Positions 1-21,016 of a DNA stretch of 21,016 nt are shown one piece after another (positions within the stretch are counted from its first letter, which is position 1; every line of letters begins with the position of its first letter). The notes under the pieces were generated by a model. That model was not told where the DNA came from. It did not search any database and worked only from the letters and a program-made list of their open reading frames with translations. A program made the position numbers and the translations under genes. Origin of the DNA: a virus; the IMG/VR virus record IMGVR_UViG_3300025137_000372, positions 1 to 21,016 of that record, one strand, 5' to 3'.

Positions 1-7
1 TTAAAAT

Positions 8-46
8 AAAATATATATAATACATAAGTATTATTATATATATTTT
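8..46. repeat. AT-rich bulged hairpin, copy 1
   Basis: Left arm 8-23, loop ATAA at 24-27, right arm 28-46. The arms are complementary apart from three extra bases in the right arm, about six pairs from the loop. It is nearly identical to the core of the copy at 1902-1944 and has the same plan as 541-576 and 1594-1636. It lies downstream of the minus-strand gene at 127-501. It could be a terminator, an mRNA processing site or a DNA cruciform; the sequence alone does not decide. Confidence 0.75.
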
Positions 47-126
47 TTTTACTGTCACTGACATGCTACATGAAAGGAAGAAATCATGCAACATGTTTCG
101 TCTATCTTTAAGACTCTTCAGAGTGA

Positions 127-501
127 CTAACTTTGAACATCAAGTCTTACTTTCGTAAAGTCTTTATTGGTAAAGAAACCAAAGAAACCAGTAAACTTGT
201 CTACTAATTGTCTCAATGAAAGTTTATCATTGACTCTAACTTCATCAATAACTTTCTTGCCTTGAGTTTGCACTAATACTTCTTGAGCATTAGAACAACT
301 ATCTTGCACAAGAATCTCAGTCCCTTGTATATCTGCAATCATCTTATGAGTTGATGATGCTGACATGTCAAAAGGTGAGCAAGTTACTTTAAGTTTACCA
401 TAGGTAAAAACTATATTGCCATTATCATTCGTTGTAATTAATGGTGTTTCTGAGTAGATTTTATTTTTTGCTACTCGCAAAATTAAGTTGTCAGTTGCCA
501 T
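127..501 (-). CDS. hypothetical protein, 124 aa
   Basis: I do not recognise this family. The start ATG (499-501) has a clear ribosome binding site: reading the minus strand, AAAGGAT lies about six bases upstream. The protein is a mix of polar and beta-prone segments with no membrane helix or signal peptide. Its C-terminal third contains an Arg-Gln-Leu-Val-Asp-Lys-Phe stretch and a Phe/Gly-rich FTGFFGFF segment near residues 103-110. It has two cysteines (about residues 41 and 69), too few for a metal site by themselves. It is the last gene in the window of a minus-strand group of four. It is separated from the next gene upstream (581-1312) by the bulged hairpin at 541-576 and followed by another at 8-46. 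By position it belongs to an early or accessory block transcribed away from the packaging genes. No function is proposed. Confidence 0.8.
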   Translation of the reverse strand: MATDNLILRVAKNKIYSETPLITTNDNGNIVFTYGKLKVTCSPFDMSASSTHKMIADIQGTEILVQDSCSNAQEVLVQTQGKKVIDEVRVNDKLSLRQLVDKFTGFFGFFTNKDFTKVRLDVQS

Positions 502-540
502 GTTATTATCCTTTCATGGTGGTTAATGTTTAATATAATA

Positions 541-576
541 AATAAATATATATTACACAAGTAATAATATATATTT
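541..576. repeat. AT-rich bulged hairpin, copy 2
   Basis: Left arm 544-556, loop ACAA 557-560, right arm 561-576, with three extra bases in the right arm as in copies 1 and 3. Compared with those copies the fourth pair from the loop is swapped (T-A instead of A-T) and the loop differs at one base, so pairing is kept while sequence changes. It lies in the gap between the stop of the 581-1312 gene and the ribosome binding site of the 127-501 gene. Confidence 0.75.
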
Positions 577-580
577 TTTA

Positions 581-1312
581 TTAATGTTGGTAAATCGCAA
601 CACTTTTCGCATTGAGATTTGAACCACTACAAAGTACACAAGTTGCACATGTAGTTCGTCTTCCAGCCTCTTTAGAGGCAGGGCAAAGCACTTCTTTTGT
701 CTTGTCAAGCACTTCGTCTTTCTGCATAACTCTAAAGGTTCGTAGTCCTTTAGACCAGAATTTCTTTGACTCCTCGTAAGAGTCAGCACTCATCATGCTA
801 ATATCACTTCTTACATCACAACTACTGTTGTGAGATTGATGTGTATAGCTTGTATGTTTCTTAGCTTTGCTAAGTAAACTATCCCAGATGTAGCTAGGTA
901 CTGCACTTGGGTCACCATAAGTTCCAAGTCTTACGACTTGATTTTCGCCTAGACTTTGTATGTCTTTATGATGTTTAACTACTTTGTAGTTACCTTTCTT
1001 AAATGCTCTGTAGGTTGCCAAGACACCTTGATATAACTTGACATAGCAAGTTCTATTCTTAGCTTGTTTTCTATCTGGTTCAGTAGTAACTGAACCCCTA
1101 TGCTTACAATCACCACAGATTGAGTAGTCCTCGCCAGTTTTACTGGCAAGTCTTGGGTCTATATCACTTCGTATGATATAGGTTTGAGCCATATTGCCAG
1201 TCTTTTTGTTCAAACTTTGTGGTAAATATACCACACTTATTGACTTGCCATCTATCAAGGACTCACCTTGATAAATGACAAAACCTTTAGGTTTTTTGTT
1301 ATTATTTAGCAT
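581..1312 (-). CDS. conserved phage protein with two Cys clusters (CGDCKHRG family)
   Basis: 243 aa from the ATG at 1310-1312. A TTG six bases further upstream is in frame, but AGGAT sits at the right distance for the ATG. The sequence carries CGDCKHRG followed by a CYV about 24 residues later, then a VRLGTYGDPSAVP motif, a tyrosine-threonine-histidine segment, FRV, and a C-terminal CPASKE...C..C..C cluster. The Cys count and spacing suggest binding of zinc or an iron-sulphur cluster. From memory this matches a family of unknown function found in many actinobacteriophages and marine phages (possibly the one catalogued as DUF7227). I cannot confirm the accession. It overlaps the 1302-1565 gene by 11 bases, so the two are probably translationally coupled. 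The enzymatic role is unknown. The strictly conserved RLGxYGDP and Cys motifs argue for catalysis or nucleic-acid binding rather than a structural role (inference). Confidence 0.85.
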   Translation of the reverse strand: MLNNNKKPKGFVIYQGESLIDGKSISVVYLPQSLNKKTGNMAQTYIIRSDIDPRLASKTGEDYSICGDCKHRGSVTTEPDRKQAKNRTCYVKLYQGVLATYRAFKKGNYKVVKHHKDIQSLGENQVVRLGTYGDPSAVPSYIWDSLLSKAKKHTSYTHQSHNSSCDVRSDISMMSADSYEESKKFWSKGLRTFRVMQKDEVLDKTKEVLCPASKEAGRRTTCATCVLCSGSNLNAKSVAIYQH

Positions 1313-1565
1313 GTTCAATCCTTATCTTTTTAATTTTTGTTGCAAAATCACTATTAGAAAGCTCATAAGCCTTGCTTTGTATTTCATGATTTGTTTGTTT
1401 ATACAAATCCTTGTAGTAATTTTCCAATTCCCAACCAAAATCTTCAAGTCTTTCACCAACTTCGTTGGTTAATTTATCTATATGTTCCAAATCTTTTTGG
1501 ATAACTTCTAGTCTTTCATCAAAGCCATCTGGCAATGTTGTTTGTAAAACAATCTTATTTGTCAT
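1302..1565 (-). CDS. small acidic helical protein, 87 aa
   Basis: The start is placed at the ATG at 1563-1565, because AAAGGA lies seven bases upstream on the minus strand. The longer open frame to 1613 would run through the hairpin at 1594-1636 and has no ribosome binding site. The protein is rich in Glu, Lys, Leu and Asp. It is predicted by eye to be almost wholly helical, with a likely coiled coil from about residue 15 to 60 and a basic tail (KIKKIRIEHAK). Its stop overlaps the start of the downstream 581-1312 gene by 11 bases. I do not recognise it. A role as a small partner or inhibitor protein of the adjacent Cys-cluster protein is possible but is inference only. Confidence 0.75.
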   Translation of the reverse strand: MTNKIVLQTTLPDGFDERLEVIQKDLEHIDKLTNEVGERLEDFGWELENYYKDLYKQTNHEIQSKAYELSNSDFATKIKKIRIEHAK

Positions 1566-1593
1566 GTTAAGTCCTTTCTGTAAGTTGTTGTAA

Positions 1594-1636
1594 TATATTA
1601 CTACTACTTCCAAAAGAAGTAAGTAGTAGTTATATA
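1594..1636. repeat. bulged hairpin, copy 4 (divergent sequence)
   Basis: Inner stem 1606-1610 pairs with 1616-1620 around a CAAAA loop. Four extra bases (1621-1624) interrupt the right arm. Then 1594-1605 pairs with 1625-1636 with one mismatch. The sequence is unrelated to copies 1-3, apart from AT ends, but the architecture is the same: short inner stem, A-rich loop, 3-4 base bulge on the same arm, long outer stem. It lies between the stop of the 1644-1859 gene and the ribosome binding site of the 1302-1565 gene. Confidence 0.7.
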
Positions 1637-1643
1637 TAAGTTG

Positions 1644-1859
1644 TTACTTTTTCCAGCTATTATCATATTCTATGATATTTGCTAAAGCAAAATAAGTTAT
1701 GGATAATAATCCATAACCAATAAAACCTATTCCCATAATGTCTGGTGTTACACCAAGACTTGGTGCAAAGCAAAGTAAAACAAGACTTAAGAAACTTAAG
1801 ACTCCACTAATTGCAGAGATTTTTAAACAAAGTTTAGATTGAAACATAAAATCTAACAT
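1644..1859 (-). CDS. small membrane protein with two predicted transmembrane helices, 71 aa
   Basis: The ATG is at 1857-1859, with AAAGGA five bases upstream on the minus strand. Two hydrophobic stretches are visible, about residues 12-34 (ISAISGVLSFLSLVLLCF) and 42-62 (IMGIGFIGYGLLSITYFALA). They are separated by a short PSLGVTPD loop, with a polar tail ending NSWKK. It is therefore a small two-pass inner-membrane protein. It is the first gene after the divergent control region in the minus direction. Small membrane proteins in such early blocks can act in superinfection exclusion, host membrane takeover or lysis control, and holins also have this size. Nothing in the sequence separates these options, and no endolysin is adjacent. 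Function unassigned. Confidence 0.75.
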   Translation of the reverse strand: MLDFMFQSKLCLKISAISGVLSFLSLVLLCFAPSLGVTPDIMGIGFIGYGLLSITYFALANIIEYDNSWKK

Positions 1860-1889
1860 ATTTTTCCTTTCACAGTTGGTTGTTGTCTA

Positions 1890-1953
1890 AGTAGTATATA
1901 ACAAAAATATATATAATACATAAGTATTATTATATATATTTTTGTATACTACT
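1890..1953. repeat. 64-base palindrome containing hairpin copy 3
   Basis: The core 1902-1944 is nearly the same sequence as copy 1 (8-46), with loop ATAA at 1920-1923 and three extra bases in the right arm. Flanking arms 1890-1898 (AGTAGTATA) and 1945-1953 (TATACTACT) are exact reverse complements. Three extra bases (1899-1901) on the left balance the bulge on the right, so both arms are 30 bases long. It lies between the minus-strand promoter candidate at 2013-2041 and the first minus-strand gene, so it would form in the 5' leader of that transcript. Confidence 0.85.
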
Positions 1954-2004
1954 AAAGGTTTGGGAAAATGAGATAGCATTGAATTTATTACATAAATTGT
2001 GATT

Positions 2005-2028
2005 GAAAGAGTCTTATCTTACTCTTTC
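2005..2028. promoter_or_regulatory. perfect 8+8 inverted repeat overlapping a -10 candidate
   Basis: GAAAGAGT (2005-2012) and ACTCTTTC (2021-2028) are exact reverse complements around an 8-base centre that contains the minus-strand -10 candidate (2013-2018). A second perfect inverted repeat, AGACTC-AA-GAGTCT, lies at 2043-2056, just upstream of the -35 candidate. This arrangement fits operator sites flanking or covering a promoter for the leftward genes; the binding protein is not identified. Confidence 0.5.
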
Positions 2029-2041
2029 TTATTGATATCAA
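2013..2041 (-). promoter_or_regulatory. candidate sigma70-like promoter for leftward genes
   Basis: On the minus strand TTGATA (2036-2041) resembles a -35 hexamer. A spacer of 17 bases then leads to GATAAG (2013-2018), a weak -10 with 4 of 6 consensus bases. It is the best candidate I see between the palindrome array and the 1644-1859 gene. In such AT-rich sequence other -10-like words exist, so this is tentative. Confidence 0.35.
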
Positions 2042-2157
2042 GAGACTCAAGAGTCTATGACTGTCAAAGAATTGACATAAACTGTCAAATAAATGACAAA
2101 AGTGTCAGATAATTGGCATGTCAAAGTTTTGACACCACTAAATCTAGGTAATTTTAC

Positions 2158-2201
2158 TGCAATTAAGAATCATTCGCAGTGCAATTAAGAATCATTCTCA
2201 C
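2158..2201. repeat. 22-base tandem repeat, two copies
   Basis: TGCAATTAAGAATCATTC occurs at 2158-2175 and again at 2180-2197, exactly 22 bases apart. Each copy contains the 9-base dyad GAATCATTC (2167-2175 and 2189-2197). The pair lies inside the gap between the fourth and fifth TGTCAAA palindromes. It is likely a binding site for a second factor on the same face of the helix. Confidence 0.7.
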
Positions 2202-2206
2202 TAAAA

Positions 2207-2272
2207 TGTTCTACATTTGTTCCCTGTCAAAGTTTTGACTGTTCTACTTTTGTTCTATGTCAAACTTTTGAC
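2207..2272. repeat. 33-base tandem repeat containing palindromes 5 and 6
   Basis: 2207-2239 and 2240-2272 are adjacent copies with four differences in 33 positions. Each begins TGTTCTAC and ends with a TGTCAAA palindrome arm pair. The duplication explains the last two members of the palindrome array and suggests the array grows by local tandem duplication. Confidence 0.75.
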
Positions 2273-2279
2273 ACTAAGA

Positions 2280-2454: not shown

Positions 2455-2511
2455 TCAGAATAATCTATACAATATTGAGCACGAGAGATGCAATAGAGTT
2501 ATATAGACTAT

Positions 2512-2545: not shown

Positions 2546-2625
2546 TCCTCATGGGTTACCTTTAACCCTGGAAAACTTAGTAGAAGTATAGCATACTTTT
2601 TTAATTCTGGCAAGTTATTTTTTAA

Positions 2626-2661: not shown

Positions 2662-3357
2662 ATGAAAAAAGATAAACATCTTCTATATGCTCACTTAGAT
2701 GATAGAGGTTTACGTGACCTTATAAAAGAATTAGCATCATATCGTAAGAAACCTAATGCAGGTAGGGACTTAATTGAGATGAGACGTGAGTATATGCGAA
2801 GATGTGAAGAAAGGAAACTAAATATGGCTGAGAAAAAAGCTAAGAAATTACCTGAAGGACAAAAAGTTGAGATGCTCCAAAGAGCACAGAAGAAATATAA
2901 CTCTTTTGCAAAGAATACTTTACCTAGTGGTCTATCTCCTATGCAGGAAAAGTTTTGTTTAGAGTACATTGCAACAGGTGACACCTTAACTGCATGGAAA
3001 GCAGCAGGATATAAAGACTGTAGGACTGAGGCAGATACTCGTGCAGAAAGTAAAAGACTTTTAAAGAATGATAAGATTGAAGAAAGATGTAATCAGATTA
3101 GGGAAGATGCAATAAAAGACGTAGGTCTTAATATTAATGAAGTTGTAAAGAAGTTTATGAAAGTTTATGACAGAGGTATGGAAGAGAATGATTTAACAAA
3201 CTCTAATAGAGCAATGGAGTTTATTGGTAAGCACATGGGTATGTTAATTGAACGACAAGAAATTAAACAAGAGGTAACTAACAAATCTCCTGAAGAATTA
3301 GAAAGAGAGATTAAGCATTACGAAAATGTTGTTAAACTTGAAAGTGGTAATAACTAA
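2662..3357 (+). CDS. terS: terminase small subunit (Terminase_2-like)
   Basis: 231 aa. It recognises phage DNA and brings it to the large terminase for packaging. The central part, from about residue 91, reads LSPMQEKFCLEYIATGD, then TAWKAAGY and a series of helices. This is the pattern of the Terminase_2 small-subunit family (LTPkQekFveeYl...AaikAGY), with a helix-turn-helix DNA-binding fold. The roughly 90-residue N-terminal extension is strongly basic (RREYMRRCEERK, AEKKAKK) and is longer than in typical family members. It could be an extra DNA contact or an artefact of the start choice, since no ribosome binding site precedes ATG 2662. The C-terminal part (residues 150-225) is helical and acidic, as expected for oligomerisation and contact with the large subunit. 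It is followed by an overlapping membrane-protein gene and the large terminase, which supports the call. Confidence 0.8.
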   Translation: MKKDKHLLYAHLDDRGLRDLIKELASYRKKPNAGRDLIEMRREYMRRCEERKLNMAEKKAKKLPEGQKVEMLQRAQKKYNSFAKNTLPSGLSPMQEKFCLEYIATGDTLTAWKAAGYKDCRTEADTRAESKRLLKNDKIEERCNQIREDAIKDVGLNINEVVKKFMKVYDRGMEENDLTNSNRAMEFIGKHMGMLIERQEIKQEVTNKSPEELEREIKHYENVVKLESGNN

Positions 3358-3562: not shown

Positions 3563-3697
3563 ATGGCATATAATCACTACCACAATAAATACTATAATAA
3601 ACAAATTAAACCTAAACAGTATAAAAGTCCAGTTGTTATGTGGTCTTCTGAATTGGTTCGTAACGAAGAGGGTGAAGAAAGTTATCAAAAAAAGTGA
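3563..3697 (+). CDS. small protein, 44 aa, Tyr/Asn/Lys-rich
   Basis: The ATG directly abuts the stop of the upstream gene (TAA 3560-3562). The stop TGA (3695-3697) overlaps the GTG start of the large terminase in a GTGA junction, so the open frame fills the gap exactly. It begins MAYNHYHNKYYNKQ, continues with a basic KPKQYKS segment and ends with an acidic/basic tail (NEEGEESYQKK). No domain is recognised. The perfect junctions on both sides are the main evidence that it is translated and that it couples translation of the membrane protein to that of the terminase. Confidence 0.65.
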   Translation: MAYNHYHNKYYNKQIKPKQYKSPVVMWSSELVRNEEGEESYQKK

Positions 3698-5211
3698 TAA
3701 GTGAAAATTTAATTAAACTTAGAGAGTTATACTTTCAAAGAGCAGTACAACAATCTAAAGATAGCTTCCTACATTTTGTAGGTTTATTTGCTCCTACTCT
3801 TGTACCTGATTGGGTAATGGGTAAACATATACAAGTTATCTCTGATAAATTACAAAAGGTTGAGAGTGGTGAAATAAAAAGACTGATGGTCTTCTTACCT
3901 CCACGTTCTTCTAAGTCAGTAATCTGTTCTAAGTTATTTCCTGCATGGTATGTAGGTAGACATCCACAACATGAAATACTGTGTGTCTCACACTCTGACC
4001 AACTGGCTTCAGACTTTGGTAGGTCAGTAAGAGACTTAGTTAACTTTGATTTATTTAATAATGTTTTTCCTAGTGTAAGTTTAAGAAGTGATGTAAGAGC
4101 AGCAGGTAAATGGAAAACAAATGAAGGTGGAACTTATTATGCTGCAGGTGTTAGAAGTCAGATAGCTGGTCGTGGTGCACATATAGCAATCTTAGATGAC
4201 GTAATGTCTGAAGAAGATTCATTCTCTGCAACAGGTAGAAGATATGTAAAAGAGTGGTACCCCTCAGGATTAAGAACTCGTATTATGCCTAATGGTTCAA
4301 TAGTTATTATTAATACTCGTTACCATGAAGATGATTTATGTGGTTGGCTGTTAAGACAAGAATCACAAGTTGAATTAGAAAACAAATGGGAAGTTATAAA
4401 AATACCTGCTTGGGTAGATGAAGATACAAGTAAATTATTAAAGTTACCTGTAGGGTCTTCGTACTTTCCTGAATGGAAATCAAAAGAAGTTTTAAAAAAT
4501 GATGAAGAAGAAATAAAAGCAAGTAATGGTTCACGTTATTGGGAATCATTATATATGCAAAATCCTGTACCTGATGAAGGTGGTCTTATAAAAAAGAAAT
4601 GGATTGAATGGTGGGATTATGATGAACCACCTGAATGTAATTATATTATACAAACATATGATACTGCATTCTCAACAAAGACAACTGCTGACTTTAGTGT
4701 AATACAAACTTGGGGAATCTTTGAAGATATAGAAACAGATTCCAATGGTGTTGAAAGATGGGTATCTAATTTAATTTTATTAGGAAATGAACGAGGAAGA
4801 TTTGATTATCCTACATTAAGAATGAAAGCACAAGAACTCTATGATTATCATAAACCTGATGTATGTATTATAGAAAAGAAGGCAAGTGGACAATCACTAA
4901 TCCAGGACATGCGAAGAGCAGGTCTGCCTGTTTTGGATTATATACCTGATAGAGATAAGACTGCAAGAGTATATGCAGCAACCCCATTAATGGAAGCAGG
5001 GAGAGTCTGGTTGCCAAAAGGCAAAGAATGGAGTGATGATTTATTTAGTGAAGCAATAATGTTTCCTAATGGAAGACATGATGACCAAGTAGATGCAATG
5101 ACAATGGCAATACATTACATGAAAGAGTCTTGGAATTTAACTCATCCAGATGACCCTGATTATGATGAAGGGTATGAAAGAAAAAAAAGAGTTGCATACT
5201 GGAAATTTTAA
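3694..5211 (+). CDS. terL: terminase large subunit (ATPase and nuclease)
   Basis: 505 aa. The packaging motor that translocates DNA into the prohead and cuts the concatemer. The N-terminal ATPase domain shows a Walker A-like loop PPRSSKS (residues 69-75), in place of the more usual PPRHGKS. Walker B is IAILDD (164-169), and the coupling motif IINTRYHEDD lies at 205-214. The C-terminal RNase H-like nuclease domain has the expected acidic residues: Asp323 in TYDTAFS, Glu394 in CIIEKKASG, and Asp464/Asp467 in RHDDQVDAM. Length and motif order match the family of terminases with separate ATPase and Terminase_6C nuclease domains. The start is a GTG overlapping the previous stop (GTGA), which implies translational coupling. 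The missing glycine in Walker A is a known type of variant among phage terminases (PPRS/T-x-KS) and not evidence of inactivity. Confidence 0.95.
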   Translation: MISENLIKLRELYFQRAVQQSKDSFLHFVGLFAPTLVPDWVMGKHIQVISDKLQKVESGEIKRLMVFLPPRSSKSVICSKLFPAWYVGRHPQHEILCVSHSDQLASDFGRSVRDLVNFDLFNNVFPSVSLRSDVRAAGKWKTNEGGTYYAAGVRSQIAGRGAHIAILDDVMSEEDSFSATGRRYVKEWYPSGLRTRIMPNGSIVIINTRYHEDDLCGWLLRQESQVELENKWEVIKIPAWVDEDTSKLLKLPVGSSYFPEWKSKEVLKNDEEEIKASNGSRYWESLYMQNPVPDEGGLIKKKWIEWWDYDEPPECNYIIQTYDTAFSTKTTADFSVIQTWGIFEDIETDSNGVERWVSNLILLGNERGRFDYPTLRMKAQELYDYHKPDVCIIEKKASGQSLIQDMRRAGLPVLDYIPDRDKTARVYAATPLMEAGRVWLPKGKEWSDDLFSEAIMFPNGRHDDQVDAMTMAIHYMKESWNLTHPDDPDYDEGYERKKRVAYWKF

Positions 5212-5250: not shown

Positions 5251-7674
5251 ATGGCAACTGAAAAAAATCCCTTTGAACCTATTCCTGATATGGAAGAGAT
5301 TACACAGGACAATATTGAAATAGAAGAACAAGATGTAGCTACAAATCCTGAAAGTGTTATGATGATGGATGATGGTTCAGCAGTAGTAGACCTTACAGGT
5401 AAACCTGCTATGATGTCTGAAGAAGAAATGCAAGGTGGTCATTATGATAACTTAGTACCTTTTTTAGATGAAGCAGAGTTAGATGATATAGCAAGTGAAG
5501 TTATTGAAAAATATACAGCAGATAAATCTTCAAGAGGAGAATGGGAACAAACATTTGAAAGAGGATTTGATTTACTAGGATTAAAATTAAAAGAAACTTC
5601 AGAACCATTTGAAGGTGCATGTACTGCAGTCCACCCACTCTTAATAGAGTCAGCAGTGAAGTTTCAATCTAAAGCATCACAAGAATTATTTCCACCAGGT
5701 GGTCCAGTTAAATCTCAAATAATTGGATTAGAAACAGCAGATAAACAACAACAAGCACAACGTGTTAAACAGTTTATGAATTATCAGATAACTGATGTTA
5801 TGCCTGAATACTTTCATGAGTTTGAAAGAATGTTATTTCATCTGCCTATTATAGGTTCAGCATTTAAAAAGATTTATTATGATGCATCTATAGATAGACC
5901 TTGTTCAGAGTTTGTACCTGTTGACCAGTTCTATGTTTCTTATCATGCATCAGACTTAAGAAAAGCTGATAGATATACACATGTTATTTTAAGAAACCCA
6001 AATGATTTAGCAAAAGATATTGCAGCAGGAGTCTATGAAGATTTAGAATTACCTGAAGCAACTTCAGTTGACCCTACAAGTATGTCAATGAAAGTTGACG
6101 AGATAATGGGTACGTCAGTTCCTGAAGATACTGACCCTCAATATACTTTATTAGAGCAACATTGTTATTTAGATTTACCTGAACCTTATGGTGATGAGGA
6201 AGGAATTGCTTTACCTTATATTGTTACAGTTGAAGAACAATCAAGAAAAGTTTTATCTATAAGAAGAAACTATAATGAAGATGACCCAAAGAAGCAAAAG
6301 AAAATGTTCTTTACTCATTATAAGTTTGTACCTGGTTTTGGTTTTTATGGTTTAGGTCTTATACATTTCTTAGGTAATCTAACTATGACTGCAACTGCAG
6401 CTATGAGAAACTTAGTTGACTCTGGTCAGTTTGCAACATTACCTGCAGGATTTAAAGCTAAAGGTGTAAAGGTAGTTGGTGATAATGAACCATTAGCTCC
6501 TGGTGAATTTAGAGATGTAGAATCTACTGGTATTGATTTAAATAGAGCCATTGTTCCATTACCTTATAAAGAACCTTCTAATACATTATTTCAGATGTTA
6601 GGTTTTATTGCTGGAGCTGGACAAAAATTTGCAGACTCTACTGAAAAAGTAATTAGTGATTCAACTAATTATGGACCAGTAGGTACAACTATGGCATTAC
6701 TAGAAGCATCTAGTAAATTTTTTAGTGCCATACATAAAAGAATACATAACTCTCAGAAAGAAGAGTTTAAGATATTGGCAAGGATTAATTTTGAATCCTT
6801 ACCTGACCAATATCCATATGAAGTTCCTGGTGGAAGTCCTACAATATTTAAACAGGACTTTGATGGTAAGGTTGACGTAATTCCTGTCAGCGACCCAAAC
6901 ATACCATCTAGTGCACATAGATTAATGCTTTCACAGTTGGCATTACAACTCGCTAGTCAAGCACCCCCAGGAAGCTACAATATACAGGCACTTCATAGAA
7001 CTATTTTAGAAGCTGCTAATATGCCTAACTTAGATATGATATTGCCACCACAACAACGACCACAAGCACTTGACCCTGTATCAGATATACAAAATGCAGT
7101 AAAGGGTGTACCTATTGCAGCTTTTCCAGGACAAGACCATATGGCACATATTACAGTTAAGACTGCATACATGTCTGACCCTATGAATGGTGGTAGTCCA
7201 ATTATGCAAAAAGTTAGACCAGTTCTTGAATCAAATATAAAAGAACATATGATTATGAGATACCAAGAACAAATGAATGGAATGGTAAATGGAATGGTAT
7301 CAGGAGTTGCAACTGACCCTGCAACCTTACAACAAGTACAAGCACAAGCTGCTCAACAAATTTCACAAGCTAACCAAGCAATGGGTGTACCTCAATCCCC
7401 AGAACAACAAATGGTTGAACTTGAGAAACAAAGACTTAATTTAGAAGAAGATAAATTAGGTCTTGAAGCATTACAAGAAGCTGCTAGTTTATCTGTTAAA
7501 CAGCAAGAACTTGCACTTAAAGAAGAAGACCAAGGTATTAAAGCATTAAAAGAAGGTGCTGCTCATATCTTAAAACAAACTGAAAGTGAAAAAGATAGAA
7601 AAACTAAAATTGCAGAAACAACAATAAAAACTCTTGGGAAGTTAGCTCAAGAAGAAATAAAAGGAGAAAACTAA
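5251..7674 (+). CDS. portal protein, P22-like, with long coiled-coil tail
   Basis: 807 aa. Forms the dodecameric ring at one vertex of the capsid through which DNA enters and leaves. The start ATG follows GAAAGAG at good spacing. The N-terminal 90 residues are acidic and probably flexible. The core begins with a motif at 119-160, PFEGACTAVHPLL...FQSKASQELFPPGGPVKSQIIG. I associate it with P22 gp1-like portals of marine podovirus-like phages (consensus PFeGAs-v-hPLl-ea-vqfQakA-kELfPpgGPVr). Length is near the P22 portal (about 725) plus an extra C-terminal region. The last 120 residues are Gln/Ala/Glu-rich with a heptad-like pattern, probably a coiled coil comparable to the helical barrel of P22. 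It follows the terminase directly, the usual order. I am confident of portal, less so of the exact subfamily. Confidence 0.88.
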   Translation: MATEKNPFEPIPDMEEITQDNIEIEEQDVATNPESVMMMDDGSAVVDLTGKPAMMSEEEMQGGHYDNLVPFLDEAELDDIASEVIEKYTADKSSRGEWEQTFERGFDLLGLKLKETSEPFEGACTAVHPLLIESAVKFQSKASQELFPPGGPVKSQIIGLETADKQQQAQRVKQFMNYQITDVMPEYFHEFERMLFHLPIIGSAFKKIYYDASIDRPCSEFVPVDQFYVSYHASDLRKADRYTHVILRNPNDLAKDIAAGVYEDLELPEATSVDPTSMSMKVDEIMGTSVPEDTDPQYTLLEQHCYLDLPEPYGDEEGIALPYIVTVEEQSRKVLSIRRNYNEDDPKKQKKMFFTHYKFVPGFGFYGLGLIHFLGNLTMTATAAMRNLVDSGQFATLPAGFKAKGVKVVGDNEPLAPGEFRDVESTGIDLNRAIVPLPYKEPSNTLFQMLGFIAGAGQKFADSTEKVISDSTNYGPVGTTMALLEASSKFFSAIHKRIHNSQKEEFKILARINFESLPDQYPYEVPGGSPTIFKQDFDGKVDVIPVSDPNIPSSAHRLMLSQLALQLASQAPPGSYNIQALHRTILEAANMPNLDMILPPQQRPQALDPVSDIQNAVKGVPIAAFPGQDHMAHITVKTAYMSDPMNGGSPIMQKVRPVLESNIKEHMIMRYQEQMNGMVNGMVSGVATDPATLQQVQAQAAQQISQANQAMGVPQSPEQQMVELEKQRLNLEEDKLGLEALQEAASLSVKQQELALKEEDQGIKALKEGAAHILKQTESEKDRKTKIAETTIKTLGKLAQEEIKGEN

Positions 7675-7844: not shown

Positions 7845-8048
7845 ATGGACAATATTCTAAAAGAAATTGGACATGAAATAGATAAAGAAATAAGTCAGAT
7901 TCAAGTAATGTTAGGGGATGGAGTCTGTGAGGATTATGCCCAATATAAACAAATGGTAGGTTCAATAGTAGGTTTAAAAAAATCTAAAGAACTTATTAAA
8001 ACAATATATACTAACATGATAAATGGAGATGATGATGCAGACGATTAA
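7845..8048 (+). CDS. conserved small helical protein, 67 aa
   Basis: It begins MDNILKEIGHEIDKEISQ and contains the stretch DYAQYKQMVGSIVGLKKSKELI, ending in an acidic GDDDADD tail. It is probably all-helical. Short proteins with a YxxYK-x-vGxi-GL core sit beside portal genes in other phages as I remember them, but no function is known. The only ribosome binding candidate is AAAGG about 12 bases upstream of ATG 7845, inside the end of the preceding gene. It overlaps the start of the GroES-like gene by 14 bases if that gene starts at 8035. Confidence 0.75.
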   Translation: MDNILKEIGHEIDKEISQIQVMLGDGVCEDYAQYKQMVGSIVGLKKSKELIKTIYTNMINGDDDADD

Positions 8049-8451
8049 AATGCCACAAGCAATTAAAAATGATAAATGGACTAACAAAGATGAATTACCT
8101 GACCCTACAATATTACCAGAGTTACCAGGTTACCATGTACTGGTTCGCCCTGTTTCAATAAAAGATAAAACTAAAGGTGGTATTATGCTACCTGAATCTG
8201 TTAAAAGTGATATTGCTTATTTAACAACAGTAGGTAGAGTATTAAAGATAGGAGATATAGCATATAAAGATAATGATAAATTTCCTAATGGACCTTGGTG
8301 TAAAATAGGTGACCATGTATGTTATGGTAAACACACAGGTCAAAAACTTTTATATAAAGGAGTAAGACTTATATTGTTATTTGATGACCAAATAATTATG
8401 AGAGTACAAAATCCTAAAGATTTAGATACAACTTATAACTTATCTAATTAA
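8035..8451 (+). CDS. GroES-like co-chaperonin
   Basis: 138 aa from ATG 8035. Other in-frame ATGs lie at 8023, 8029, 8032 and 8050; 8035 is preferred because GGAG at 8025-8028 is six bases upstream. The core matches the Cpn10 fold: a first strand GYHVLVRP, a mobile-loop-like segment KTKGGIMLPES that resembles the GGIVL loop contacting GroEL, then VGRVLKIGD, IGDHVCYGKHTGQKL and the closing ILLFDDQIIMRV strand. Phage GroES homologues such as T4 gp31 work with host GroEL to fold the major capsid protein. Here the gene lies in the head module, upstream of the scaffold and capsid, which fits that job. The protein is longer than host GroES (about 95 aa), with an extended N-terminus and some inserted loops. 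It probably replaces host GroES on host GroEL (inference). Confidence 0.9.
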   Translation: MQTIKMPQAIKNDKWTNKDELPDPTILPELPGYHVLVRPVSIKDKTKGGIMLPESVKSDIAYLTTVGRVLKIGDIAYKDNDKFPNGPWCKIGDHVCYGKHTGQKLLYKGVRLILLFDDQIIMRVQNPKDLDTTYNLSN

Positions 8452-12429: not shown

Positions 12430-13011
12430 ATGTCTACAACAAAAGGACTCTTTGGGTTACAGCCTTTAAGACAGTTAGGTTCAGGATATAATACTACAGG
12501 TTCATCTGAGTATAATATTGCAAACACTTTAACTGTTAATATATTTAAAGGTGATGTGGTAACTATGAATAATGGTTTTATTCAACCAATTGCAACAACT
12601 ACTGATTATATCATAGGTGTTTTTCAAGGTTGTTCCTACATTGACCCAACAACTAAACAACCAACCTTTAGTTCTTTTTATGCTGCCAATACGTCAAGTG
12701 CAGTAGGAAATCCTAAAGCATTTGTTGTTGATGACCCTGCAGCTACTTTTATGGTACAAGCAGATGCATCAGTAACAATTGGTGATATTAACTCGCAAAA
12801 CTTTCCAGTAACATTAGGAGCAGGAAATACTATAACTGGTATCTCAGGCTTTGGTATTAAGGCTGCAGGAAGAGCAACAACAAGTAAAGCATTAAGACCT
12901 CTTAATGTTATTAACGAACCAGGTAATTCATTATCAGGTACAGATGGTGCATTTCCTAAAGTTGAAGTTGAAATTGTTCAACACTGGACCAAACGATTTG
13001 CAACAGCATAA
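12430..13011 (+). CDS. predicted head structural protein, 193 aa
   Basis: Begins MSTTKGLFGLQPLRQLGSGY and is beta-rich, with Gly, Thr, Asn and Ala and low charge. Recognisable pieces are the N-terminal pattern PFGLrPvr-lG--ynsg, a GDVVTM segment, VDDPAATFMVQAD and a C-terminal KVEVEIVQH. I recall the same pattern in uncharacterised proteins encoded beside the capsid gene in many marine phages (MatPfGLrPVrkvGqny...GDpVkl...). It is likely a minor capsid, decoration or head fibre protein; I cannot say which. AAGGAG precedes ATG 12430, a strong ribosome binding site as expected for an abundant virion protein. The major capsid gene follows 17 bases later. Confidence 0.8.
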   Translation: MSTTKGLFGLQPLRQLGSGYNTTGSSEYNIANTLTVNIFKGDVVTMNNGFIQPIATTTDYIIGVFQGCSYIDPTTKQPTFSSFYAANTSSAVGNPKAFVVDDPAATFMVQADASVTIGDINSQNFPVTLGAGNTITGISGFGIKAAGRATTSKALRPLNVINEPGNSLSGTDGAFPKVEVEIVQHWTKRFATA

Positions 13012-13028: not shown

Positions 13029-13940
13029 ATGGCTATTAATAGAGCAAGTATTGCTAAAGAACTTCTCCCAGGTCTAAATGCTGTGTTTGGACTTGAATAT
13101 GGAGATGTTAATGAAGAACATAAACCTTTATTTGAAGTTGAAAATTCAGATAGAAGTTTTGAAGAAGAAGTATTGTTCACAGGATTCGCAAGTGCACCAG
13201 TCAAAGCTGAAGGTGCTGCTGTTTCATTTGATACAGCACAAGAATCTTTCACTGCTAGATACAACCACGAAACAGTTGCATTAGCTTTCTCAGTAACTGA
13301 AGAAGCTATGGAAGATAATCTTTATGATACTTTCGCAAAAGTTCGTGCAAGAGCACTAGCAAGAGCAATGGCAAACACTAAGCAAGTAAAAGCTGCTAAC
13401 ATTTTTGTTAATGGTTTTACTGCAGGTGATACAGCTATTGGTGATGGACAAGCATTTTTTGCAAACTCACACCCAGTTGTAGAGGGTGGAACACAAAGTA
13501 ACTTATTAGCTGCTGCTGATTTATCAGAAGCTGCATTAGAAGCTGCTTTGATTGCAATTGACAAAACCAAAGATGATAGAAATATTTTAATTGGTGCACA
13601 AGCTATGTCATTGCACATACCTACTGACCTGAAATTTACTGCTGATAGAATATTAGCATCACCAGGCAGAACTGCAACAGCTAACAACGACATCAATGCA
13701 GTTAGAAACATGGGAGTAGTTCCAGATGGTTATTTTGTAAATAGAAGATTTACAAGTGTAAATGACTATTTCATTAAAACTGATGTTCCTAATGGTACTA
13801 AGATGTTTGTTAGAGTTCCATTACAAACTAAGATGGAGCCTGACTTTGATACTGGCAATGTTAGATTTAAATCAAGAGAAAGATATTCTTTTGGTGTATC
13901 TGACTGGAGAGGGTTTTATGGCTCTCAAGCAGCTAGTTAA
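13029..13940 (+). CDS. major capsid protein, Mu gpT-like
   Basis: 303 aa, forming the icosahedral shell. The features match the Mu-like major head subunit family: a near N-terminal LLPGLNAVF segment and a middle helix region EEAMEDNLYDTFAKVRARALARAMANTKQV (about 91-120). Then come GDGQAFFANSHPV (138-150; Mu gpT-type proteins have a similar FFs-aHpn), MSLHIPTDLKFTADRIL (193-209), and a C-terminal DTGNVRFKSRERYSFGVSDWRGFYGS. The last motif is the typical end (rfk-R-r-g-gv-dWrgvyg) of HK97-fold capsids. It carries no long N-terminal scaffolding domain; scaffolding is supplied by the gene at 10853. AGGAG precedes ATG 13029, and a strong hairpin terminator follows the stop. Confidence 0.88.
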   Translation: MAINRASIAKELLPGLNAVFGLEYGDVNEEHKPLFEVENSDRSFEEEVLFTGFASAPVKAEGAAVSFDTAQESFTARYNHETVALAFSVTEEAMEDNLYDTFAKVRARALARAMANTKQVKAANIFVNGFTAGDTAIGDGQAFFANSHPVVEGGTQSNLLAAADLSEAALEAALIAIDKTKDDRNILIGAQAMSLHIPTDLKFTADRILASPGRTATANNDINAVRNMGVVPDGYFVNRRFTSVNDYFIKTDVPNGTKMFVRVPLQTKMEPDFDTGNVRFKSRERYSFGVSDWRGFYGSQAAS

Positions 13941-16696: not shown

Positions 16697-16700
16697 ATAA

Positions 16701-17384: not shown

Positions 17385-17674
17385 TGGCAGTAGGTAAAAA
17401 GTCTTTAGCAGTTTGTGATATATGTGGATTTGTATATCCTCATAGTGTAATGAAAAGAAACAGTTATGGACTTATAGTTTGTCCTACTGATTATGATGGA
17501 GCTTATGATGAAAAGAATCATCCACAGAATAGAGCACCTGATGTAAGAGATGACCCTGCAATAAGAGACCCTAGACCTTCTCCTTCTGAAGCTATGACTG
17601 ATTGGGAAAATCAAAATACTAAATGGGAAGCTACAACAAAATTTTGGAATATGGTGAATAATAACAATGCCTGA
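17384..17674 (+). CDS. small zinc-finger-like protein, 96 aa
   Basis: N-terminal CDICGFVYPHSVMKRNSYGL then VCPTDYDGAYDEKNHPQN and APDVRDDPAIRDPRPSPSEA. The CxxC pair and a Cys about 19 residues later look like a partial zinc ribbon. I recall a widespread short phage protein with the same plan: C-I-sGf-yp-s-mrk--yG-lV-p-Dyd--hPqd---pd---d-pi-dPRPe. His20 and the later histidine could complete a metal site. No enzymatic function is known. It overlaps the next gene by eight bases and the previous by one. It sits at the junction between head-completion and fibre genes, so a tail-assembly role is conceivable (inference). Confidence 0.75.
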   Translation: MAVGKKSLAVCDICGFVYPHSVMKRNSYGLIVCPTDYDGAYDEKNHPQNRAPDVRDDPAIRDPRPSPSEAMTDWENQNTKWEATTKFWNMVNNNNA

Positions 17675-19703
17675 TTTAACTGGAACACAAATATCAAATA
17701 CCTATAAAAGATTAATGCAGGTTAATGTATCTGCAAACTCAGGTATTACAACAGACTTACAAACAATTCAATCTGGAGATAATTCTAATACTCCTCTTCA
17801 ACTTTCAAACTCAACTTTAAATGTTAATGGAACTTTTGCAATAGGTGGTGTAAACCTTACAGCAACAGTATCTTCTATAAATGCTATCTCAGATATTTCA
17901 GGTGGTGTAGGATATATTGTTGTATCAGGTACAAACATTTATAATAGAACATTTTCTGCAGGTCCTAATATTACAATTACAAATGCAAATGGTGTTGCTA
18001 GTAATACTGGTATTGCATTAACAAGTGCAGTTGCTACTGAGTCTTTAGGAGCTACAACAGTTTCATGTTCAACATTAGAAGTAACAGGAAGTATAGATGT
18101 ATCAGCAGTAAGTGTAGGTACATTTACTGCAGTATCTATTAATACCTCAGTAATGAAAGCAGCTTCAGTTTCAATTGCAGGTGGTGATGCTACACTACAA
18201 ACAGGAAGTATTACAACCTTTGCAGCAACAACAGTTGCCTGTTCAGTTCTTGAGGGAACAACAGGTACATTTACAGGAATAGTTTCAGCATCAGGGTTTG
18301 CAGGAGATGGTTCTCAATTAACTAATGTACCTTCAGCAGAAGGTGGAACTGTTAAACGTATAACTGCAGGTACTGGAATAGGTATTACAGTTAATGGTGC
18401 AACTTCAACTTCTATTCCTACAAGTGGTACAGTTCTTATAAATCCTAATCAATCATTTGGTACAGTTTCAGTTTCAACAGGATTAGTAGTTCCTGAAGGT
18501 CTTGCAAGATTTTCAATACCTGTTAGTGGTACAGCAGCAACATTCTCAGGTAATGTATCTGCTGCAAATGTTTATGCATCTACAAATGTTTTTGTAGCTG
18601 GAACAGCAGTACCAACAGGTGCACAAATTGCTGCAGTATCAGCTTTAACTTCAGTAAACAAAGCTGACATTGCTACCAATGTAGCTGCAATAACTTCAGT
18701 AAACTCAGTTGTAGCAGCAGTATCAGCATTAACGTCAGTAAATAAAGCAGGAGTTGCAACTAATGTAGCAGCTATTACTTCTGTCAATAGTAAGATAGCA
18801 ACAGTTTCAGGAGCACTTGCAACTTCAATAGGAAATACAAATACAGTTTTAGCAGCAACGTCAGCAGCTTTAGCCACGTCTATAGGTAATAGTAATACAG
18901 TTATTGCAGCAGTCTCAGTTTTAACATCAGTTAATTTAGCTAAGATTACATCTATAAATTCAGTAATAGGGGATGGTTCTGGATTTGCAACAGATGCTGA
19001 ACTACAAGCAGTGTCTGCTACAATGGCTACATCTATAGCAAATAGCAACACAGTCATAGCTGCAGTGTCAGTTCTGACTGGAGTTAATCTTGCAAAGATA
19101 ACTTCAATTAATTCAGTAATAGGTGATGGTACAGGGTTTGCTACAGATGCAGAATTACAGGCAGTATCTGCAACAATGGCTACGTCTATTGCAAATAGTA
19201 ATACAGTAATTGCTGCAGTATCAGCATTAACCTCAGTAAATAAAGTTGATGTAGCTGCAAGGTTACCATTATCAGGTGGTACATTAACAGGTATCTTATC
19301 TGCTACTGATGTATATACAAGTGCAGTAGCAATTGGTGTTGATACATTATTAGGTAAACAATTACATATAGGTACAGCAGCAGTTGCTGACATTGTAAGT
19401 TTAACTGATGGTACAAATATAGCAGTAGATTTAAATGCAGGTCAAAATTTTGCAGTTCAGTTAGGTGGTAATAGAACATTATCTAATCCAACAAATTGTG
19501 TAGCAGGACAAACAGGAAGTATTTTTGTAATACAAGATGGCACAGGAAGTAGAACATTATCTTTTGCAGCTAATTATAAATTTCCAGGAGCAACTGCTCC
19601 AACATTAACAACAACTGCAGGGCAAACAGATAGAATTGATTATATAGTTTTTGCTTCTGCAAACGTACATGCAATAGCAACTTTAAATGTAAGTACATCT
19701 TAG
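17667..19703 (+). CDS. repeat-containing tail fibre or tail spike protein
   Basis: 678 aa, Ser/Thr/Ala/Val/Asn-rich with almost no Lys or Trp, as in trimeric fibres. An N-terminal head-like part (MPDLTGTQISNTYKRLMQV) could bind the virion. The middle is built from repeats: 28-residue units (about 322-349, 350-377), then 51-residue units at about 400-450, 451-501 and a partial one to about 525. These have a repeated TSVN, ATSIANSNTVIAAVS and AKITSINSVIGDG pattern; they may form a triple-helical coiled coil or beta-fibre stalk. The C-terminal 120 residues form a distinct domain, with FAVQLGGNRTLSNPTNCVAGQTGSIFVIQDGTG and a closing strand pattern. I recall this ending in many phage tail fibre and virion glycan-binding proteins. 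The start ATG 17667 has no clear ribosome binding site and overlaps the upstream gene. Receptor target unknown. Confidence 0.8.
   Translation: MPDLTGTQISNTYKRLMQVNVSANSGITTDLQTIQSGDNSNTPLQLSNSTLNVNGTFAIGGVNLTATVSSINAISDISGGVGYIVVSGTNIYNRTFSAGPNITITNANGVASNTGIALTSAVATESLGATTVSCSTLEVTGSIDVSAVSVGTFTAVSINTSVMKAASVSIAGGDATLQTGSITTFAATTVACSVLEGTTGTFTGIVSASGFAGDGSQLTNVPSAEGGTVKRITAGTGIGITVNGATSTSIPTSGTVLINPNQSFGTVSVSTGLVVPEGLARFSIPVSGTAATFSGNVSAANVYASTNVFVAGTAVPTGAQIAAVSALTSVNKADIATNVAAITSVNSVVAAVSALTSVNKAGVATNVAAITSVNSKIATVSGALATSIGNTNTVLAATSAALATSIGNSNTVIAAVSVLTSVNLAKITSINSVIGDGSGFATDAELQAVSATMATSIANSNTVIAAVSVLTGVNLAKITSINSVIGDGTGFATDAELQAVSATMATSIANSNTVIAAVSALTSVNKVDVAARLPLSGGTLTGILSATDVYTSAVAIGVDTLLGKQLHIGTAAVADIVSLTDGTNIAVDLNAGQNFAVQLGGNRTLSNPTNCVAGQTGSIFVIQDGTGSRTLSFAANYKFPGATAPTLTTTAGQTDRIDYIVFASANVHAIATLNVSTS
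18630..18797 (+). repeat. 84-base coding repeats in the fibre gene
   Basis: Two adjacent 28-codon units (18630-18713 and 18714-18797) encode AAVSALTSVNKADIATNVAA and nearly the same sequence again. They belong to the stalk part of the fibre. Confidence 0.75.
18864..19241 (+). repeat. 153-base coding repeats in the fibre gene
   Basis: Units begin near 18864, 19017 and 19170; equivalent Met codons at 19023 and 19176 are exactly 153 bases apart. The proteins they encode are almost identical, while the DNA differs at many third positions, so the duplication is not recent or is under protein-level constraint. Confidence 0.8.
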
Positions 19704-19999
19704 TGGTTAGAAGAATACCTAGAAAAAAAGGTCAACGTGCTAAAAGTAAAAAACATTCAGACTTATATACTGATGAAGACCCAAAGGGTACAATACATGG
19801 TTTAAAGTTTGCAACTGAAGCAGATGCAAAAAGTTCAATACGAAAGATAAAAAATTCTACTCGTAAACATAACCATAAAACACAAGCAGCAATTGCAATG
19901 GAACAAAGAGCAAAAGTTGCAGGTAAAGATAAAGCAGCAATGATTTATAGAAAATTTATTGAGCAACAAAAAAAGAAAACTAAAAGTAGGAAGGCTTAA
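19703..19999 (+). CDS. small basic conserved phage protein (YTDEDPKGTI family), 98 aa
   Basis: Starts with GTG 19703 overlapping the stop of the fibre gene by one base. It carries DLYTDEDPKGTIHGLKFATEADA, then helical basic IRKIKNSTRKHNHKTQAAIAMEQRAKVAGK and YRKFIEQQKKK. I recall a common family in marine phages with the order ELYTDEDPKGTIkGLgFKTeaDA-kSV-kI-nSgRsHAHkiQAAvAMEQRAkvmGk-saA-vYRkfi. The strong conservation and predicted helix-rich, basic form suggest DNA binding or virion packing, but the function is unknown. There is no ribosome binding site of note, so it probably depends on coupling to the fibre gene. Confidence 0.8.
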   Translation: MVRRIPRKKGQRAKSKKHSDLYTDEDPKGTIHGLKFATEADAKSSIRKIKNSTRKHNHKTQAAIAMEQRAKVAGKDKAAMIYRKFIEQQKKKTKSRKA

Positions 20000-21016
20000 T
20001 GGCAGTATTTCAAAATAATTTATTAATGGGAGCAGCTTCTCAAGCAGGAGGTGGTGTACATTCAATAGAGCAATCTATTCGTTTTAATGATGATGATTCA
20101 CCATTTATGACTAGAACTCCTGGTAGTACAGGAAACAGAAGAACTTGGAGTATTAATTGTTGGGTAAAATTAGGCAACAGCCCAGGCGATTTTACACTTT
20201 GGTCAGTACATACTGGGTATCAATCTTATGCACAAATAAGAAGTGATGGATTAGAATTTGCAGTAGGTAATGGAAGTTCAAGTAATTCGTACCATAAAAC
20301 AAATAGAGTATTTAGAGATGGTAGTGCTTGGTATAATTTTTTATTTGTTTTTGATTCAACAAATGCTATTAGTTCTGAACGAGCAAGAATTTATGTAAAT
20401 GGTCAAAGAGAAACTAGCTTTTCAAATACTGGAAGTTGGGCACAAAACTATGACTCTAATGTTAATTTTACACAAGCTCATTATATTGGTGAGCAAGGAA
20501 CTGGAGGGAATCATCTTGATGGTTACCTAGCAGATTTTGTTATTATAGATGGTTTAGCATTAGACCCAAGTAGTTTTGGAGAAACTAATGATAATGGAAT
20601 TTGGGTTCCAAAAGATATTACTGGTTTAACATTTGGTACTAATGGTGTTTTTATTGATGGTAGAGATGCAAGTGATTTAGGTGATGATGAATCTGGTAAT
20701 GGTAATGATTTTACCACCAGTGGTCTTGCAACACATGACCAAATGGCAGATACACCTACAAACAATCATGCAATTATGAATACTCTTGATACACACACTT
20801 CACCTGACTGGACTGCAAGTAATGGTAATTTAGATGTTTCATGGAATGGAACTAATTATACTAATCATTTATTTTCTACTTTATCTATGCCTTCAACAGG
20901 TAAATGGTATTTTGAAATTAAATACGTTTCTGACTCTAGTCAGGTTTTATATTATCAACAATTAAGGTTGGGTATTATGAGAGAAGATATAAATGCTGCG
21001 TATATTCAAGCTAATC
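19999..21016 (+). CDS. LamG/concanavalin-like tail or receptor-binding protein (partial, 3' end outside window)
   Basis: Open to the window end: 339 complete codons. ATG 19999 overlaps the previous stop by one base (TAATG). The first 190 residues match a concanavalin-type jelly-roll seen at the front of many marine phage tail or receptor-binding proteins. Evidence is SIRFNDDDSPFMTRTPGSTGN, TWSINCWVKLG, VFRDGSAWYNFLFVFDSTNA, RIYVNGQRET, and HLDGYLADFVIIDGLALDPSSFGE. The text then goes on to DESGNGNDFTTSGL, PTNNHAIMNTLD, and SNGNLDVSW, which is usually followed by a SPRY-like domain; TGKWYFEIKY near residue 300 is its beginning. The function is presumably binding of a host surface glycan or protein. 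Truncated at the edge, so total length and C-terminus are unknown. Confidence 0.85.
   Translation, partial: MAVFQNNLLMGAASQAGGGVHSIEQSIRFNDDDSPFMTRTPGSTGNRRTWSINCWVKLGNSPGDFTLWSVHTGYQSYAQIRSDGLEFAVGNGSSSNSYHKTNRVFRDGSAWYNFLFVFDSTNAISSERARIYVNGQRETSFSNTGSWAQNYDSNVNFTQAHYIGEQGTGGNHLDGYLADFVIIDGLALDPSSFGETNDNGIWVPKDITGLTFGTNGVFIDGRDASDLGDDESGNGNDFTTSGLATHDQMADTPTNNHAIMNTLDTHTSPDWTASNGNLDVSWNGTNYTNHLFSTLSMPSTGKWYFEIKYVSDSSQVLYYQQLRLGIMREDINAAYIQAN

Follow-up and report, generated by a model that had tools for sequence, protein, structure and literature searches.

A shared, predicted nuclease-like gene in phages that lack GATC

Gene content of the fragment and absence of GATC

The stretch of DNA analysed here (the window; IMG/VR record IMGVR_UViG_3300025137_000372, positions 1 to 21,016, 21,016 nucleotides) is a fragment of a marine podovirus genome, distantly related to the pelagiphages HTVC023P and HTVC027P. 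Its features are as follows, with + and - denoting the strand.

1..21016, no strand: GATC-free fragment; the putative GATC nuclease gene (phrog_13596) is not in the window, and by collinearity with the related contig G001 it lies about 7 kb to the left of position 1
127..501 (-): leftward small early-region ORF of 124 aa, function unknown, without a Pfam hit
581..1318 (-): leftward ORF, phrog_2554 (unknown function)
2662..3357 (+): terminase small subunit
3694..5211 (+): terminase large subunit
5251..7674 (+): portal (head-to-tail connecting) protein, used to define the GATC-free clade
8023..8451 (+): GroES-like co-chaperonin
13029..13940 (+): major capsid protein
5080..5088 (+): Asp-Asp-Gln written GAT GAC CAA
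5149..5157 (+): Asp-Asp-Pro written GAT GAC CCT, the second Asp being GAC before C
8383..8391 (+): Asp-Asp-Gln written GAT GAC CAA
10425..10433 (+): Asp-Asp-Pro written GAT GAC CCT
12730..12738 (+): Asp-Asp-Pro written GAT GAC CCT
17549..17557 (+): Asp-Asp-Pro written GAT GAC CCT

An earlier note, made from the sequence alone, had claimed that GATC is completely avoided in the window and that Asp codons are rewritten accordingly, and this observation is confirmed. GATC occurs 0 times in 21,016 bases, against 62.3 expected from base composition or 41.9 from a second-order Markov model, and it is the most depleted of the 256 tetramers (z -6.5; P(0) about 6.5e-19 for a Poisson mean of 41.9). In 1,000 shuffles of synonymous codons within the genes of the window, 44.3±4.4 GATC were obtained (minimum 31; z -10.1). 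As the note stated, GATA (121), GATG (135) and GATT (121) are abundant, and GANTC is found 55 times against 62 expected. Asp codons before a base C are GAC in 36 cases and GAT in 0, while those before other bases are GAT in 262 and GAC in 57 (Fisher p 2.8e-24); the note's "almost always GAC" is in fact always. No such effect is seen for His, Asn or Tyr. Ser after ..GA is AGY in 16 cases and TCN in 0, and Ile ATC after G is found 0 times. The example sites in the note are real to within about 2 bases, with GATGACCCT at 5149, 10425, 12730 and 17549 and GATGACCAA at 5080 and 8383. The note missed that TCGA (0, expected 13.9), GGCC (0, expected 5.7) and the trinucleotide CCG/CGG (0) are also absent from the window.

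The absence of GATC is a property of the clade. All 32 portal relatives at 82% identity or more have 0 GATC, whereas all 48 at 65% or less contain GATC. Among whole contigs, six (G001-G006) have 0 GATC against 84-148 expected each, while three others (G009, G010 and G011) have 156, 112 and 203. Selection acts at the level of DNA, since 24 of 24 and 31 of 31 amino-acid-conserved GATC sites of G009 and G011, respectively, are synonymously altered in G003, mostly to GACC.

A phage gene associated with GATC loss

Relatives with the left arm carry a protein of 136-149 aa that matches phrog_13596, a family annotated only as of unknown function (E 3.2e-44, positions 2-126 of 131). The gene is present in G001, G003, G004, G005 and G006 (G002 ends before the slot), and absent from G009, G010, G011, HTVC023P and HTVC027P, although gene absence among the 48 GATC-containing portal relatives rests on only 3 of them. 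HMM scores are 82-209 bits in every gene-bearing genome and below 10 bits elsewhere. The gene usually sits in the replication module, beside DNA polymerase and often beside an exonuclease, and in T7-like pelagiphages between the two; it occupies a polymerase-primase slot that GATC-containing relatives leave empty or fill otherwise.

Among named phages, tblastn finds the gene in only 44 of 50,697 records. All 16 of these that were examined, from SAR11, SAR116, Roseobacter and Xanthomonas (the jumbo phage XacN1), have 0 GATC with 64-170 expected each (XacN1, 0 against 233 in 60 kb). They include unrelated lineages, XacN1 sharing only about 1% of sampled genes with the others, although several named phages, as well as the IMG/VR contigs, are related to each other and are not independent samples. 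Of 173 IMG/VR contigs fetched by the gene, 165 have 0 GATC. Pooled over 169 gene-bearing contigs (1.76 Mb), 5 GATC are found against 5,101 expected (O/E 0.001), and the next most avoided tetramer is GGCC with an O/E of 0.44. The five residual sites lie in four of these contigs (two in L196, and one each in L243, L327 and L328). In three contigs (L254-L256), in which the conserved TGN motif of the protein is changed, GATC is present and AATC/GATT is avoided instead (7 against 361).

Eight pelagiphages lacking the gene, most on the same host strains, contain GATC: HTVC010P 131, HTVC008M 32 (in 60 kb), HTVC026P 55, HTVC106P 93, HTVC111P 65, HTVC202P 65, HTVC023P 218 and HTVC027P 206. The count in HTVC008M is nevertheless reduced (32 against 154). 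Of all G003 genes, this is the only one found in all 12 GATC-free phages compared, which were chosen by it, and in none of 10 GATC-containing ones, and no other shared gene separates the two sets; DNA polymerase and primase are shared with GATC-rich relatives. No homologue is found in 385 alphaproteobacterial genomes or in 72,556 plasmids.

In 45 divergent homologues, E37-V38-K39 is invariant, as are E24, E54, G63 and GGD108-110, so that the conserved (D/E)-x-K motif of the PD-(D/E)XK nuclease superfamily is present. In a Foldseek search with an AlphaFold model (pLDDT 83.8), the top PDB hits are restriction enzymes, namely the Eco15I N-terminal domain (probability 0.97), PvuII (0.60-0.80) and MspI, but these matches are weak (E 0.03-0.4 and TM about 0.3-0.4; best E 0.028, TM 0.40) and lack an assigned canonical preceding Asp. 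No Pfam, NCBIfam or PDB sequence family is convincingly hit, and a sequence-based PDB search gave nothing credible. Neither Pfam (up to E 10) nor NCBIfam (up to E 1) gives a match to the known GATC enzymes (DpnII/MboI, Sau3AI/MutH, CviAI), and no such PDB sequence is hit. No match to MethyltransfD12 (the Pfam Dam family), the methyltransferase family searched systematically, is found in the window-clade genomes searched, in which no GATC sites are left to methylate.

A phage-encoded GATC nuclease as the likely explanation

The interpretation offered in the earlier note, either a host defence that reads GATC, such as an MboI/DpnII-type or Dam-linked restriction system, or a phage strategy of losing all methylation sites, is only partly supported. 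Active selection against GATC at the DNA level is fully supported, but host defence is not the best explanation, and a strategy of merely losing methylation sites does not predict the link to a phage gene. What separates GATC-free from GATC-containing phages in every genome tested is phrog_13596.

It is considered likely that the phage lineage encodes its own sequence-specific nuclease for GATC (phrog_13596, a small protein of about 115-150 aa with a PD-(D/E)XK-like E-V-K motif), without a detected partner methyltransferase for protection. In this view, natural selection has instead removed every GATC from the phage genome, mostly by synonymous change (GATC to GACC), and the enzyme would cut unprotected GATC in other DNA during infection. 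The host chromosome is the most likely target, given the usual position of the gene beside DNA polymerase and often an exonuclease, with rival phages and plasmids as the alternative. The genomic comparisons demonstrate the absence of GATC, the coincidence of a GATC-free genome with the gene across unrelated phages, the loss of GATC as the one site missing throughout (apart from the residual sites and variants described above), the occupation of the polymerase-primase slot, and a resemblance of the motif and, weakly, of the fold to restriction enzymes. In contrast, that the protein cleaves DNA, that it reads GATC and what its target is are inferred from the genomic footprint without biochemical evidence, and the presence of the gene in the genome of the window itself is inferred from near-identical contigs. 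Catalysis rests on the E-x-K motif and a modest fold match, and correlation alone cannot exclude a GATC-binding protein that is toxic for another reason, or a gene that is a counter-measure to something else targeting GATC. These phages avoid other sites too, so some other selection also acts.

If correct, this would give a function and a precise recognition sequence to a gene of unknown function that is common in phages of SAR11, one of the most abundant bacterial groups in the ocean. It would reverse the usual reading of site avoidance, in that a missing word can be the mark of the phage's own weapon rather than of host defence, offer a sequence-only way to find and assign phage nucleases, and explain how a restriction enzyme can live without a methyltransferase. 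No paper describing this was found in the open-access literature, subscription papers and preprints lying outside the search. More tentatively, phages might carry a class of methyltransferase-free, site-specific nucleases as takeover weapons, each readable from the word its genome lacks. phrog_13596 would be the GATC member, variants with an altered TGN motif would read another word (AATC/GATT), different nuclease-like genes occupy the same polymerase-primase slot in related phages, and other complete losses (CCWGG, GANTC, CCG) may mark further such enzymes. Two nuclease-like ORFs in this slot of G011 were rejected as the cause of CCWGG loss, as no homologue is found in the other CCWGG-free phages.

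Alternative explanations

It is possible, although less likely, that the putative nuclease is a weapon against competing phages, satellites or plasmids in the same cell rather than against the host chromosome. GATC-rich phages infect the same strains, and the marseillevirus GATC system does not degrade host DNA, while DNA of a related virus without it is noted to be open to GATC cutting (PMC7253447). On the other hand, the location of the gene in the replication module is as expected of host-DNA recycling, and chlorovirus enzymes are thought to degrade host DNA and were not responsible for mutual exclusion (PMC7019647).

Escape from a GATC-specific host restriction system (MboI/DpnII type) is improbable. 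Site loss is a common anti-restriction strategy, and all 46 phages whose hosts encode the corresponding enzymes have a GATC compositional bias below 1 (PMC6286503). The broad loss of several palindromes, these phages also avoiding other restriction-like sites, first suggested a host rich in restriction systems; this was set aside for GATC, the only one lost in all gene-bearing phages, though it remains possible for the other words. By isolation record, however, SAR11 strains HTCC1062 and HTCC7211 are infected both by GATC-free phages (HTVC019P, 011P, 025P, 031P, Eistla; 115P, 109P, 103P, 104P) and by phages full of GATC (HTVC010P, 026P, 023P, 027P; 106P, 111P), with HTVC008M reduced but not empty; phages of one host thus do not share the avoidance, but differ completely according to the gene. 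In addition, no restriction-modification systems are reported in the Pelagibacterales genomes of PMC9516812, and GATC loss follows a phage gene across SAR11, SAR116, Roseobacter and Xanthomonas phages. As for the host, a search for the phage in GTDB genomes returned only distant terminases and no host-linked copy. The IscU gene, used as a host marker, is closest to low-GC alphaproteobacterial genomes of about 1.4 Mb, which suggests but does not prove a SAR11-like host, and the low-GC alphaproteobacterial loci with the closest IscU carry GATC at the expected rate (38 against 38 in 13 kb).

It is similarly improbable that the protein is a GATC-specific nickase, resolvase or packaging/replication factor whose uncontrolled action on the phage's own GATC is harmful, with sites removed for reasons other than attack on foreign DNA. 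The small single-domain protein and its weak fold match would allow this, but a factor working on phage DNA would be expected to keep at least one target site, and there are none. Evasion of methyl-directed mismatch repair or Dam-linked processes, as proposed for the GATC-free phage phiX174 (PMC5014478), is very unlikely, because it does not predict the association with one phage gene and GATC-rich phages thrive on the same hosts; GANTC methylation is described in SAR11 (PMC9516812). Dam-type repair is not known to be present in SAR11.

Relation to known systems

Virus-encoded endonucleases reading GATC are already known. Chlorovirus restriction endonucleases, such as CviAI (GATC) of PBCV-1, are sequence-specific and thought to degrade host DNA, but chloroviruses protect their own DNA with an adjacent cognate methyltransferase and keep the sites (PMC7019647, PMC7253447), whereas in the window clade no Dam-family methyltransferase is detected and the sites are gone; no similarity of the phage protein to a DpnII-type Pfam family was found. 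The marseillevirus GATC restriction-modification system (mel_015/mel_016) is also virus-encoded, but it belongs to a eukaryotic virus, has a paired methyltransferase gene and is protected by methylation (PMC7253447). Type II restriction endonucleases of the PD-(D/E)XK fold (PvuII, MspI and the Eco15I N-terminal domain) are the best, though weak, PDB fold matches, and the phage protein shares with them a small size close to that of PvuII, an invariant E-x-K and an inferred palindromic 4-bp target, while no sequence similarity is detected, no methyltransferase partner is found and the gene is found only in phages. Host-DNA-degrading phage nucleases such as T7 endonuclease I, acting with T7 exonuclease, have a similar place beside polymerase and exonuclease in the gene order of T7-like pelagiphages, but T7 endonuclease I is not known to be sequence-specific. 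A T7 endonuclease-I-like gene (phrog_945) was rejected as the cause of GATC loss, because it was not found in CRP-143, C75C1, C72C1, HTVC103P and the XacN1 sample, which are GATC-free, although the window clade encodes this endonuclease-I relative separately from the phrog_13596 protein.

Absence of GATC from the window and its close relatives

The window contains no GATC, whereas 62 would be expected from base composition, 42 from a second-order Markov model and 44.3±4.4 when synonymous codons are shuffled within its genes. Before a base C, Asp is encoded by GAC in 36 of 36 cases and never by GAT, while His, Asn and Tyr show no such rule. The other two reading frames obey it too: Ser after ..GA is always AGY, and Ile ATC never follows G. 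The earlier note, which had claimed a complete lack of GATC with Asp codons rewritten before C, was thus correct in its observation, and the coordinates of its example sites are right to within about two bases.

The window, a 21-kb virus record, encodes terminase, portal, GroES, capsid and other structural proteins. The nearest named phages include Pelagibacter phages HTVC027P and HTVC023P, all below 60% portal identity. It has no near DNA relative among 50,697 phage records, although contigs such as IMGVR_UViG_3300001589_000035 (G001) have portals 97-99% identical. The avoidance is a property of the clade and has a sharp edge. Of 80 portal relatives, the 32 at 82% identity or more all have zero GATC, and the 48 at 65% or less all have GATC, in most cases near expectation. 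Whole contigs of six clade members (G001-G006) have 0 against 84-148 expected, while three relatives outside the GATC-free clade, G009, G010 and G011, have 156, 112 and 203. At amino-acid-conserved positions, every GATC of G009 (24) and G011 (31) has been changed in G003 without changing the protein, most often to GACC.

A phage gene associated with the loss of GATC

Comparison of gene content between GATC-free and GATC-rich relatives gave one outstanding candidate, a protein of 136-149 aa belonging to phrog_13596, a family of unknown function, encoded between DNA polymerase and primase-helicase. It is found in G001, G003, G004, G005 and G006, while the G002 contig ends before the slot. In G009 and G010 there is no gene between polymerase and primase, and in G011 this slot is occupied by the following ORFs:

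G011 contig C1, 40347-40823 and 40813-41301, minus strand: two other nuclease-like ORFs (DVK and EVEVK motifs)

The window is a fragment that stops about 7 kb before the place where the gene lies in G001, and in turn the presence of the gene in this very genome is inferred.

Only 44 of 50,697 phage records encode a relative of this protein. Sixteen of them were examined: HMO-2011, HTVC115P, 309P, 109P, 019P, 103P, 104P, 011P, 025P, 031P, Eistla, CRP-143, C75C1, C72C1, Deep1-GF2-KM23-C739 and XacN1 (60 of 385 kb), a few others being read over their first 40 kb. All have zero GATC, although GC ranges from 31 to 54%, hosts range over SAR11, SAR116, Roseobacter and Xanthomonas, and identity falls to about 30%. 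On the other hand, eight pelagiphages without the gene have 32 to 218 GATC. By simple arithmetic, 16 of 16 against 0 of 8 has a Fisher p of 1.4e-6; the phages are not all independent, but they fall into at least five gene-sharing groups, and XacN1 shares about 1% of its sampled genes with the rest. The host defence that reads GATC, suggested in the earlier note, is not the best explanation, since the controls infect the same strains or strains also used for gene-bearing phages (HTCC1062, HTCC7211, FZCC0015), which argues against host restriction as the cause.

The gene was then used as bait in IMG/VR, without regard to GATC. Of 173 contigs, 165 have zero GATC. When the non-homologue L335 and the variant contigs L254-L256 are left out, 169 contigs (1.76 Mb) hold 5 GATC against 5,101 expected (O/E 0.001), the next tetramer, GGCC, being at 0.44. 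The five sites are in L196 (two, near a contig end; its conserved TGN motif reads SGN), L243, L327 and L328 (the last two near contig ends). The homologues in L254, L255 and L256 keep the E-V-K motif but have lost the conserved TGN. These contigs contain GATC (6, 4 and 14) and are instead strongly depleted in AATC/GATT (7 against 361) and in ATC generally. This is what a shift in recognition would look like, although another agent cannot be excluded. TSN and TNN variants remain GATC-free.

Predicted protein and possible mechanism

Across 45 divergent homologues, F13, D16, L17, G20, E24, E37-V-K39, E54, S62, G63, I64 and G108-G-D110 are invariant. The AlphaFold model has a pLDDT of 83.8, and its best PDB matches are restriction enzymes (Eco15I N-terminal domain, PvuII and MspI), although with weak E-values. 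Matches in a viral library are mostly uncharacterised phage proteins. One of them belongs to Pectobacterium phage Wc4, whose 92-kb genome also has zero GATC (365 expected), but this genome lacks several other words and its host group is Dam-positive, so that the case is suggestive only. No Pfam, NCBIfam or PADLOC family claims the protein convincingly. It was found neither in 385 alphaproteobacterial genomes, in a search with no positive control among them, nor in plasmids.

The best-supported reading is that the gene encodes a GATC endonuclease without a methyltransferase, and that the phage survives its own enzyme by having no site. While the absence of GATC and its association with the gene are observed in the genomes, the nuclease assignment, which rests on the motif and weak fold similarity, and the activity of the protein on GATC, like the presence of the gene in the window's own genome, are inferred. 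GATC loss without this gene exists elsewhere, as in phiX174 (PMC5014478), so absence of GATC alone does not prove the gene. In T7-like pelagiphages the gene is between DNA polymerase and exonuclease, so cutting of the host chromosome followed by exonuclease digestion and nucleotide reuse is presumably the likeliest purpose. Attack on competitor DNA is the main alternative. Chlorella viruses offer the precedent of virus-encoded restriction enzymes that are thought to degrade host DNA, including a GATC enzyme, but those viruses keep their sites and methylate them (PMC7019647; PMC7253447). Marseilleviruses carry a GATC system that does not degrade host DNA (PMC7253447).

Other missing words and minor features

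Other words lost from the same phages (TCGA, GGCC, CCG, CCWGG and GANTC) are not explained by this gene. The trinucleotide CCG/CGG is completely absent from the window and from the whole contigs of G001, G009 and G010 (0 in 21 to 60 kb; 84-123 expected in G001, G009 and G010), that is, in both GATC-free and GATC-rich members, and CpG is about 0.2 of expectation. TCGA is absent from the window (0 against 14) and from most of the clade but present in the clade contigs L012, L013, L019, L020, L026, L035 and L037, whereas GGCC is absent throughout the clade. CCWGG is wholly absent (0 against 23-177) from HMO-2011, HTVC115P, HTVC109P, HTVC019P, HTVC011P, HTVC025P, G011, XacN1 and Wc4 regardless of host, but present in the window clade and in HTVC103P, 023P and 027P, possibly reflecting another phage nuclease. 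G011, with its two nuclease-like ORFs in the polymerase-primase slot, lacks CGCG and CTGCAG as well as CCWGG. GANTC is nearly absent (0-6 against 108-121) only in a subset of pelagiphages, HTVC011P, HTVC025P, HTVC019P, HTVC031P and Eistla, in line with PMC9516812, and the cause may also be phage-encoded. In the whole contigs of G009 and G010, CACTG (0 against 42 and 26), GATATC and GAATTC are absent.

Clade phages also carry IscU-like (NifU_N) and Fe-S_biosyn iron-sulphur assembly genes (G001 contig C1, 39275-39975, and equivalents in G003 and G004), the first of which is closest to low-GC alphaproteobacterial genomes of about 1.4 Mb (83-85% identity). In the window itself, imperfect repeats lie within a possible tail or fibre protein:

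17667-19703: 678-aa ORF, a possible tail or fibre protein
18873-19241: imperfect repeats inside this ORF
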